In this document: one piece after another, positions 36,643 to 39,823 of the stretch
How the letters are laid out: the number at the start of each line of letters is the position of its first letter
Position numbering within the stretch: the stretch's first letter is position 1
Assembly (NCBI GenBank): GCA_026398635.1
Contig: JAPLSM010000067.1
Coordinates: 1 to 39,823, forward strand
DNA length: 39,823 nucleotides
Direction: 5' to 3'
Source: Spirochaetota bacterium
GTDB lineage: Bacteria > Spirochaetota > Spirochaetia > SZUA-6 > Fen-1364
Program-made: the position numbers and the translations under genes
Notes under the pieces: generated by a model
Told to the model about the DNA's origin: nothing
What the model saw: only the letters and a program-made list of their open reading frames with translations
Database searches by the model: none

Positions 36643-38127
36643 ATGAACGTCCTGCTCATCATCGCAGGTGTCGTCTTCGTCATCTGGCTCATCGCCAAGT
36701 CTGTCGCAGATCGCAAGCTGCCCGCGAAAACGGATTCATCGCGACCCGTCATCCCTCATCCCCAACCGGCTCCCGTCCGTTCAGAGAGAGCACAGAAAAC
36801 TCTCGGGCCGCAACCCATTCGTCTGGAAGACATACAGCTCGATGATCCGATCTTCCGATCCGCCCTCGAGGCCATGGAAGCTGGGGAGAGCGCGTTCATC
36901 ACCGGCAGGGCCGGAACGGGCAAGTCGACGCTACTACGCTATTTCAAAGATACGACCCACCGTTCGGTCGTGGTCCTGGCTCCAACGGGCGTCGCGGCGC
37001 TGAACATCGGGGGACAGACGATCCACTCGTTCTTCCGACTGCCACCCCGGGATTTCCTCGATCCCGACGACATGCAGCCGCCCCGCGGACAATCCGTCCT
37101 GTTAATGCGCAAGCTGCAGACGTTGGTGATCGACGAGGTGTCGATGGTCCGCGCGGACATGCTTGAATGCATCGACCGGAAGCTCCGAATGGCTCGTAGC
37201 AGATCACACGAACCCTTCGGCGGGGTTCAGATGGTACTCATAGGCGATCCGTTTCAGCTGCCGCCGGTGGTCCAGGACGCCACGGTCCGCGAGCACTTTC
37301 AGGAGCTTTATGGCGGTCCTTACTTCTTCAAGTCCCCCGCGCTCAAGGAAGCGAACCTACGCCTGATCGAGCTACAGAAGAACTACCGTCAGTCAGATCC
37401 GCGCTTCATCGATCTCCTCAACAGGGTGAGAGAAAACAACCTTGATCCGGCGAGCATCGAAATCCTGAACGGCAGGGTGCAAAGCCGGGAGAGAGCATTC
37501 AATGGAGAACCGTACATCACCGCCACGCCGACCAATGCGATAGCCCAGCAGATCAATACGACCTACTTGAATGCATTGCCAGGCCAGGAAGTCACCTTGC
37601 ATGGAGATTTCGCCGGCGAGCTCACGCCCATCATGAACGGCCTCCCGGCCAAGTTGCCCACTGACGATCCCCTGGTGTTGAAGGATGGCGCACAGGTGAT
37701 GCTCGTTCGAAATGATGTCCAGCGCCGGTGGGTGAATGGTACCCTGGGCACGCTATCAGGGGATCCCCGAAGGTCAATCGCGGTTAATCTCGGCGGAGCC
37801 ACTTATCAAGTCGACAAGTGCACCTGGGAAAAAATCGAGTATGCCTACGACACCATCGAGGAGAAAATAGTCCCAAAAGTCGTTGGAACCTTCACGCAAT
37901 ACCCGCTGAAGCTCGGATGGGCATTCACGATCCACAAGGTGCAGGGGCTCACGCTAGACCGCCTCTACCTCGATCTCGCGGGCGGCGCTTTCGCTCACGG
38001 TCAGACGTACACCGCCCTTAGCAGGTGCAGATCCCTCGACGGCCTTGCCTTGGGCAGGGCAGTGTACCCGGCAGACATCATTCTCGACGCCGGGATATTG
38101 GCATTCAGAGAAGCATTCCGCAGCTGA
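36643..38127 (+). CDS. Pif1-like (SF1B) AAA helicase with predicted N-terminal transmembrane segment
   Basis: FITGRAGTGKSTLLRYFK; VLAPTGVAALNIGGQTIHSFF; LVIDEVSMVRADML; IGDPFQLPPVV; LGWAFTIHKVQGLTLDRLYLDL..YTALSRCRSLDGL; begins MNVLLIIAGVVFVIWLIAKSV. Confidence 0.9.
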   Translation: MNVLLIIAGVVFVIWLIAKSVADRKLPAKTDSSRPVIPHPQPAPVRSERAQKTLGPQPIRLEDIQLDDPIFRSALEAMEAGESAFITGRAGTGKSTLLRYFKDTTHRSVVVLAPTGVAALNIGGQTIHSFFRLPPRDFLDPDDMQPPRGQSVLLMRKLQTLVIDEVSMVRADMLECIDRKLRMARSRSHEPFGGVQMVLIGDPFQLPPVVQDATVREHFQELYGGPYFFKSPALKEANLRLIELQKNYRQSDPRFIDLLNRVRENNLDPASIEILNGRVQSRERAFNGEPYITATPTNAIAQQINTTYLNALPGQEVTLHGDFAGELTPIMNGLPAKLPTDDPLVLKDGAQVMLVRNDVQRRWVNGTLGTLSGDPRRSIAVNLGGATYQVDKCTWEKIEYAYDTIEEKIVPKVVGTFTQYPLKLGWAFTIHKVQGLTLDRLYLDLAGGAFAHGQTYTALSRCRSLDGLALGRAVYPADIILDAGILAFREAFRS

Positions 38128-38144: not shown

Positions 38145-39823
38145 TCACACCCGCATCCGCTCCGGCACTTCGAGCACCCTCACGAACTCCGCGATCACCT
38201 GCACCTCGTTCTCATCCTGCGGTTCGAGGACGATCGGCTCATACGCAGGGTTCCGTGGCTTCAGCACGATGCGGGCATGGTGCCATCCCTGCTCCGCGTC
38301 CGCGGCCTTCTCCGAGTGGTACTGCTTCACGGTGTACTGGCCGCCGGTGTGGGGATCGGAGATGCCCGAATGCCAGACCAGCAGCACCCGGCCCTCCCTG
38401 CTTCCGGCCCGGGCGGGCCTGAACACGCACCAGGACCCGTTGGGGATCAGCGGAATCATGGAATCGCCCTGCACCTGGGCAATGAACATGCCCTTCTCGA
38501 AGTCGAGGTTCTCGTTCGGCTTCACCCAGGTCTCCGCCCACTCTGGGGCGTCCTCGAGGCTCGCCTGCTCCCGGCTCCACGAACCTGCTGCCGCCTTCAG
38601 CGAAGTCAGGGGGAGGCAGTTCACCCATGGGGAACGCTCTTCAACAGGCACTTCCTTCCAAGGGAAGATCCGCTCGGGTTCCTCACCCGCGCATTCAGAG
38701 AGGATCAGCGGCAGTCGCACCAGCTCCCGGCAGATGCGGAACTCCCACGTGCCGTGCTTCCCGAGATTGCTCACCGCCTTCACCCACTTCTGGGCTGCAG
38801 CGGTCTTGGCCGCGACCTGGTTGGGCTCACGGTCGCCGCCGCCGCCCTTGATCTCGAGCACGAGGATGCGAGCCTCGGCTCCGGCTGCAGGCCGCAGGCG
38901 GATGATGAAGTCCGGGATGCAGACGTGCTGGTTGTCCTGGTACTCGTAGGAGATCTGCAGACCGAGGTGCCGGGTGTTGGCTACGAAGCACTCGACGAGG
39001 GCGGACGACTCCAGGTACTTGATCGCGTACTCCTCGTCGGTGCTCATGACCATCGCGTAATTGAGGTGGCTCTTTTCCAGTGAGACCACGGGACGCGCGG
39101 TGCGTTCGTTGACGTCCCTGGTCGAGAGCCACGGTTTGAACCGGTTCAGAAGCGGCACCAGCGGCGCCTCCTCGCTGGCCGCAACCGGCTGGATGGCATC
39201 CAGGAGCATCGAGCGGATGCGCGTGACGTGCTTCTCGTGTGCGATCTCACGCATATCGACGCCCGGCGCAGCTCGGACGCGGGTTGCGATGTACTCTTCG
39301 AGGATCCTCACGATCTCGGGGAAGAGCTCGTGACGAGCGAGGGCGACCCGCTTGCTGCCCTGCCCCTGCTCGAGGGCTCCGACGATTTCTTTCGCGATCC
39401 CGAAGACGATCTGCTGGAGCCTGACCGTTTGGTAGAACTCCTGCCGGTCCTGCGATATGAACTCCCCGGGCGACCTTCCCAGCGCGCCTTCCCCTGATTT
39501 CGAAGGCCCCGCGCTCGGGGAGCGCGTGGATGTGGTGGTAGACGGGCTCCGATTCGTCGGTCAGTTTGGGTGTCTTGCCCTTGAACGGGATGAGGGAGAA
39601 CGGGATCCCGTACACGTCGACGTATTCGGGCGGCAGCAGTCCCGTCTCGGGGTCGGGGGTGTAGCTGGTACGCCGCAGTCCCCTGCCGACCACCTGCTCG
39701 CAGAGGAGCTGGCTTCGGAACGGACGCAGGCCGAGGATGTGCGTCACGTTGTTCGCGTCCCAGCCTTCGGTCAGCATCGACACCGAGACGACGCAACGCA
39801 CCTGTTCCCCCGGCTTTCCCCGG
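38145..39823 (-). pseudogene. Restriction-type SF2 helicase / PD-(D/E)XK nuclease with C-terminal S24 (LexA-like) peptidase domain; interrupted, 5' end outside window
   Basis: [44 protein letters not shown] (frame A) and, in another frame, [80 protein letters not shown]; frames change near 39455-39498. Confidence 0.82.

Follow-up and report, generated by a model that had tools for sequence, protein, structure and literature searches.

The end of a spirochaete contig raises the question of why a restriction-type helicase-nuclease should carry a LexA/UmuD-type peptidase domain at its C-terminus, and what that domain might do to the enzyme. The window, i.e. the whole stretch of DNA analysed (39,823 nucleotides), is an entire contig, and the contig end falls within the tailed gene. 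A preliminary description had placed at 38145-39311 an open frame for a PD-(D/E)XK-like nuclease fused to an S24 Ser-Lys peptidase domain; the frame was recovered exactly there, on the minus strand, with 388 codons and a GTG start. Residues 2-204 match positions 771-966 of the 970 of NCBIfam NF046055 (BPTD_3080 family restriction endonuclease; E 9.7e-34), i.e. the C-terminus of that family, and the nuclease assignment is borne out by the triad D134, E153 and K155, kept in eight of nine aligned BPTD_3080 homologues (the ninth row, L246, is a wrong-frame ORF and was disregarded). The family profile also matches the nuclease end of a type III Res protein (L062). BPTD_3080 enzymes are normally paired with a DNA methylase. 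The window gene and its homologous loci display the combination of helicase and PD-(D/E)XK nuclease, with an N6/N4-type methylase adjoining the nuclease gene in L045, L162, L021, L022, L024 and L231 (the locus of L212); the window contig stops before such a position. The S24 tail comes in addition to this layout, and we read the gene as coding for an ATP-driven DNA translocase/nuclease of restriction type, a BPTD_3080 family member joined to a mobile C-terminal S24 module.

The frame had also been read as a whole protein, and this did not hold. When L162, an intact 1,219-aa BPTD_3080-S24 fusion, is aligned by tblastn, its residues 767-1219 fall on 39467-38172, an upstream segment of the same gene continues in a different frame to the contig end, and between them 25 bp stand in place of 52 residues (156 bp), about 131 bp being absent near 39467-39493. 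The two pieces score 116.5 and 173.5 bits against the NF046055 cut-off of 800 bits, the window copy being partial, and the missing N-terminal 604 residues are absent from the rest of the window's genome, which was searched for them. The window copy is a truncated, frame-broken gene, damaged by deletion or by an assembly fault, and the 388 residues are no natural protein. A PIF1/RecD-like helicase encoded convergently with the tailed gene at 36643-38127 (plus strand) shows no sign of belonging to it. The features of the gene are as follows:

39493-39822, minus strand: upstream helicase segment belonging to this gene, out of frame with the remainder and cut by the contig end (NF046055 568-674, E 5.8e-51; L162 605-714, 84% identity)
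39468-39492, minus strand: break with change of frame, 25 bp against 52 codons in the intact orthologue (alignment to L162)
38145-39467, minus strand: S24-tailed C-terminal portion of a helicase-nuclease of the BPTD_3080 family, an open frame whose 5' part lies in another frame (NF046055 C-terminus at residues 2-204; tblastn of L162)
38700-38984, minus strand: PD-(D/E)XK nuclease domain, approximately residues 110-204 (PDF..LEIKG; D/E/K in 8/9 aligned homologues)
38910-38912, minus strand: catalytic-type Asp134 (homologue alignment)
38847-38855, minus strand: catalytic-type Glu153-x-Lys155, with Glu153 at 38853-38855 and Lys155 at 38847-38849 (homologue alignment)
38148-38618, minus strand: S24 (LexA/UmuD-type) tail module, residues about 232-388 (Pfam, AlphaFold model, Foldseek)
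38583-38588, minus strand: Ala242-Gly243, predicted scissile pair after Ala241 (LKAAAG; module alignment; low model confidence at 241-244)
38460-38462, minus strand: nucleophile Ser284 (GDSM; Ser in 85/85 modules)
38325-38327, minus strand: general base Lys329 (YTVKQY; Lys in 85/85 modules)

The S24 assignment of the preliminary description was upheld by Pfam, with Peptidase_S24 (PF00717) matching residues 239-376 at E 3.4e-13 and 49.7 bits against a curated cut-off of 23.3. An AlphaFold model of the module (pLDDT 86.6, pTM 0.81) is predicted to adopt the LexA/CI/UmuD fold, and its best Foldseek match in the PDB is lambda CI on the RecA filament, followed by LexA; the top 26 matches (E <= 1e-3) are all CI or LexA, and UmuD' comes next, just short of E 1e-3. 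The Pfam score, the model and these matches together rule out a chance similarity. A sequence search for a solved structure of this particular S24 clade found none, the best match being LexA (E 0.0095).

The Ser and Lys that had been proposed as the dyad lie at the positions claimed and, in a first set of modules, are present in 85/85, as are the Ala residues at P2 and P1; the expected Ala-Gly-type site upstream is A-A-G in 83 of these modules and A-A-S in the other two. In two further sets, sampled with an HMM, every complete module has both Ser and Lys (29/29 and 31/31), and 28/29 and 29/31 of them have Ala-Ala, the exceptions at the site being VIAD, AACG and ATAG. Pooled, the three sets have Ser and Lys in 145/145 complete modules and Ala-Ala before the site in 142/145, in a collection that overlaps slightly and includes near relatives and hence does not amount to 145 independent trials. 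The seed pattern for the 85-module set contained none of Ser, Lys or A-A-G, though similarity ranking still favours intact modules; the HMM-based sampling is less biased, as it would also draw in decayed modules. In control S24 proteins from related genomes the P2 position is often different (QAG in CI-like and PAG in UmuD-like proteins, also YAG and HAG, with LexA mostly AAG), and Ala-Ala is therefore not a requirement of the fold. The single segment of the model with confidence below 50 comprises residues 241-244, i.e. the predicted site, which fits a mobile cleavage-site loop. From these observations we strongly infer that the module is able to cleave its own polypeptide at the Ala242-Gly243 bond, which lies immediately before it on the N-terminal side. 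Conservation of this kind suggests that the module is probably self-cleaving; it does not indicate what follows the cut, and it lends no support to the activation or release of the effector that the preliminary description had suggested.

The preliminary description had allowed that the fusion might be peculiar to the frameshifted copy, a concern removed by intact homologues of 1,119-1,249 aa: besides L162, these include L045 from Phycisphaerales, whose uninterrupted 1,249-aa frame reaches 807 bits with NF046055 (above the cut-off) in addition to its S24 domain, and L212, L218 and L220, with frames of 1,119-1,120 aa. BPTD_3080 members without a tail are common, e.g. L021, L022 and the Thermus plasmid L024, which end after the nuclease, and the tail is thus an optional addition. 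The S24 domain of the intact fusion L162:5600-9256 lacks both the Ser (GDAL) and the Lys (TVRKW) and is a dead tail.

The preliminary description overlooked that the tail is a mobile module common to many unrelated defence enzymes. An earlier scan of genome contigs with the single window protein gave no matches, searches with the S24 part alone returned other large proteins, and an alignment of six modules, searched against one-per-species bacterial genomes, found 380 matching places, of which the best 80 were kept. In most of these best 80 of 380, the module forms the very C-terminus, with 0-30 residues after it, and the frames measure 620-2,050 aa. Clustering of the N-terminal parts, combined with profile scans of representatives, assigned the hosts in the best 80 of 380 to type I HsdR (27 rows, two subtypes), Druantia DruE (18), an SLFN-group-3 helicase often accompanied by a MazG-like gene (18), type ISP/IIG methylase-specificity proteins (4), DrmMI/IIG-like methylases (3), BPTD_3080 (2), a PLD-helicase of type IV-like character (2), canonical type III Res (1), another ResIII protein (1) and a DrmD-like helicase (1). 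A DUF3427 protein joined these hosts in later samples. Judged from their sequences, the tail is common to at least nine unrelated defence-enzyme families; HsdR is the commonest tailed enzyme among the loci found, and the tail sits on otherwise complete enzymes beside their usual partners. The best 80 of 380 loci span 17 named phyla and include isolates, so that metagenome chimeras offer no explanation for the tailed loci. In even samples of genomes the module was found in 29/347 for the phylum of the Acidobacteria locus L044, 36/331 for that of the Myxococcota locus L050, 5/399 for that of Paenalcaligenes and 6/395 for the class of the window's genome.

Several candidate accounts of this spread were rejected. 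Viruses are nearly devoid of the module (one locus in IMG/VR, none in INPHARED), which speaks against its being phage-borne; no conserved partner gene such as an antirepressor or adaptor is common to the host types, the tailed enzymes keeping the partners of their own class; and most short matches that could pass for stand-alone tails are effectors cut by a frameshift or a contig end. The few genuine small proteins among them are of XRE-S24 or DUF3037-S24 type. Two small DUF3037-S24 proteins (L223 and L225) have an intact dyad, and the surroundings of L225 are not evidently a defence locus. Some individual proteins have unusual layouts. L252 combines a GHKL-type ATPase and a nuclease-like domain, recognised by eye and not by profile search, with the same S24 tail. 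At L219:16-1970 an EcoAI-like HsdR has the module inserted into its N-terminal nuclease region, ahead of the matched catalytic part, and in L256 and L257 it lies in the N-terminal half of proteins of 880-1,050 aa and is followed by about 500 residues. L019/L025:3-1196 (the same contig) bears tandem S24 tails, the first without catalytic residues, in a protein cut by the contig end. The tailed PLD-helicase L091:1483-5478 has an additional N-terminal HIT domain, and residues 670-746 of the type ISP/IIG-like restriction protein at L059:5360-10456, a frame of 1,699 aa, form an IS200/REP-type Y1 transposase domain.

On the tree of the modules the host types are strongly mixed, with parsimony needing 20 host-type changes, and several mixed pairs or groups reach SH-aLRT >= 95 (GHKL with HsdR; DruE with SLFN; a Myxococcota-rich set of HsdR, Res and DruE). 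This implies that grafting occurred many times, and more than once onto BPTD_3080. The tails form a clade separate from the LexA, CI and UmuD proteins of related genomes (SH-aLRT 100), and an HMM built for them scores tails at 110-240 bits and LexA/CI/UmuD-like proteins at 26 or less. Inside the tail clade fall XRE (HTH)-S24 regulators from the Myxococcota sample (L245, L248 and L259), and consequently the source of the tail may be a phage-repressor-like regulator.

Compared with LexA, lambda CI and UmuD, the tail has the same fold, Ser-Lys dyad and Ala-Gly site N-terminal of the domain, and its Ala-Ala ahead of the cut is shared with the majority of LexA proteins; it differs in belonging to a separate clade and in its cargo, which is a defence enzyme of 800-2,000 aa instead of a DNA-binding or polymerase domain. 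The domains themselves are known, and single proteins with this architecture are surely already in databases, but an S24 tail that recurs on restriction and antiphage enzymes and is shuffled horizontally among them did not turn up in the searchable open-licence papers: a search of these for S24 tails on such enzymes returned no relevant paper, an earlier mention elsewhere being possible, and neither S24 nor autoproteolysis is mentioned in an extensive review of restriction biology from 2025.

As regards what the cut might accomplish, the trigger and the direction of the switch are what we infer, and our preferred reading is an off-switch. RecA-ssDNA filaments would stimulate self-cleavage of the tail, as they do in LexA, CI and UmuD; the cut at Ala242-Gly243 would part the complete enzyme from its tail and leave it with a new C-terminus, -Ala-Ala-COOH, resembling a latent ClpXP C-degron of the LexA type; and, upon DNA damage, the enzyme would thereby be removed before it could attack unmodified sites arising from repair and recombination. 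Such an SOS-coupled alleviation would serve any enzyme bearing a grafted tail. When LexA is cleaved, signals for ClpX are exposed and the N-terminal part is destroyed as a result (PMC10584840), and in LexA-like proteins the C-degron directly adjoins the A-G site (PMC7101444, PMC5742171). In IrvR and HdiR, A-G self-cleavage exposes a ClpXP C-degron on the N-terminal part in the manner proposed here (PMC7101444, PMC5742171), though these proteins, unlike the tailed enzymes, are transcription regulators. ClpXP also removes EcoKI HsdR, which has been studied more closely than any other relative of the most frequent tailed host, during restriction alleviation (PMC4231737), and the expected outcome for the tailed enzymes is the same, namely proteolytic loss of a translocase/nuclease after damage; however, EcoKI HsdR has no tail, and a search for its degron at the two termini found none (PMC4231737), whereas in the tailed enzymes self-cleavage would create one. 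It is the invariant Ala-Ala at the new C-terminus, together with the biology of restriction alleviation, that makes us prefer this reading. RecA, LexA and ClpX are encoded in the window's genome, as expected of it, and this adds weak evidence.

Several observations count against the off-switch. EcoKI alleviation proceeds without SOS induction, in a lexA1 strain (PMC11109961), and the LexA-like IrvR cleaves independently of RecA (PMC7101444). The Ala-Ala pair may simply be what proteases of this clade prefer. Since relatives that lack the tail are ordinary enzymes, the cut alone would yield a normal enzyme, and the off-switch would hang wholly on the degron step. Furthermore, the tailed member of the ISP/DrmMI-like operons is the methylase/specificity protein, the adjoining helicase having no tail, and the intact homologue L162 has lost its Ser and Lys. 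On balance, the chain from RecA-filament-triggered self-cleavage through the -Ala-Ala end to destruction by ClpXP, i.e. a built-in restriction alleviation, has by our estimate very nearly an even chance of being correct as a whole.

The main rival is an on-switch, in which the tail keeps the enzyme inactive (e.g. by S24 dimerisation) until phage-induced RecA filaments provoke self-cleavage and release an active helicase-nuclease, much as UmuD is converted to UmuD'. Since complete enzymes are tailed and tail-less relatives exist, removal of the tail should restore a normal enzyme, single-stranded DNA is exposed during phage infection, and the conserved catalytic residues fit equally well. Nevertheless, this reading leaves the invariant Ala-Ala at the new C-terminus unexplained; restriction enzymes have to be in place by the time infection begins, and if damage activated them they would be directed at repair intermediates. 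The module within the nuclease region of the HsdR of L219 is counted for the off-switch, as a cut at that place should inactivate the enzyme. We accordingly consider the on-switch unlikely, albeit a serious contender. Less probable still is that self-cleavage is real and has a trigger other than RecA, with the DNA-bound translocating state, or a slow constitutive cleavage, setting the lifetime of the enzyme. IrvR supplies a precedent (PMC7101444), only translocating EcoKI is recognised by ClpXP (PMC4231737), and the loci share no common partner gene; set against this, the structural neighbours of the module are mostly RecA-dependent proteins. A non-proteolytic role of the tail in assembly or sensing, through dimerisation or RecA docking and with an inherited dyad, appears quite improbable: the catalytic residues are missing from L162 and from the first tandem S24 of L019, but a purely structural role gives no account of their retention across all the complete modules. 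Finally, although the window copy is broken and placed at a contig end, it is hardly credible that the fusion is an artefact of a frame-broken or chimeric contig, the architecture itself being secured by the intact fusions (L045, L162, L212, L218 and L220) and by other tailed enzymes in isolates, among them Alcaligenes faecalis AU14, Paenalcaligenes hominis, Thioalkalivibrio and Geomobilimonas; an artefact may account only for the break in that copy.

Thus, in conclusion, the occurrence of the same tail on unrelated defence enzymes suggests a shared, undescribed switch tied to DNA damage. This bears on the old question of how bacteria whose own DNA has been damaged or is newly unmodified escape being killed by their DNA-attacking defence enzymes: the same self-cleaving module seems to have been grafted repeatedly onto type I, type III, Druantia, Schlafen-like and other enzymes as an answer. 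Tentatively, and with somewhat less assurance than for the off-switch, we propose that the shuffled LexA-type tail might be a general plug-in regulator, which would tie at least nine antiphage enzyme families to RecA filaments without transcription and mark them for ClpXP by an end made through cleavage. If this is true, the SOS signal would be coupled to immunity post-translationally through a portable off- or on-switch, and defence systems lifted by DNA damage would be predicted.
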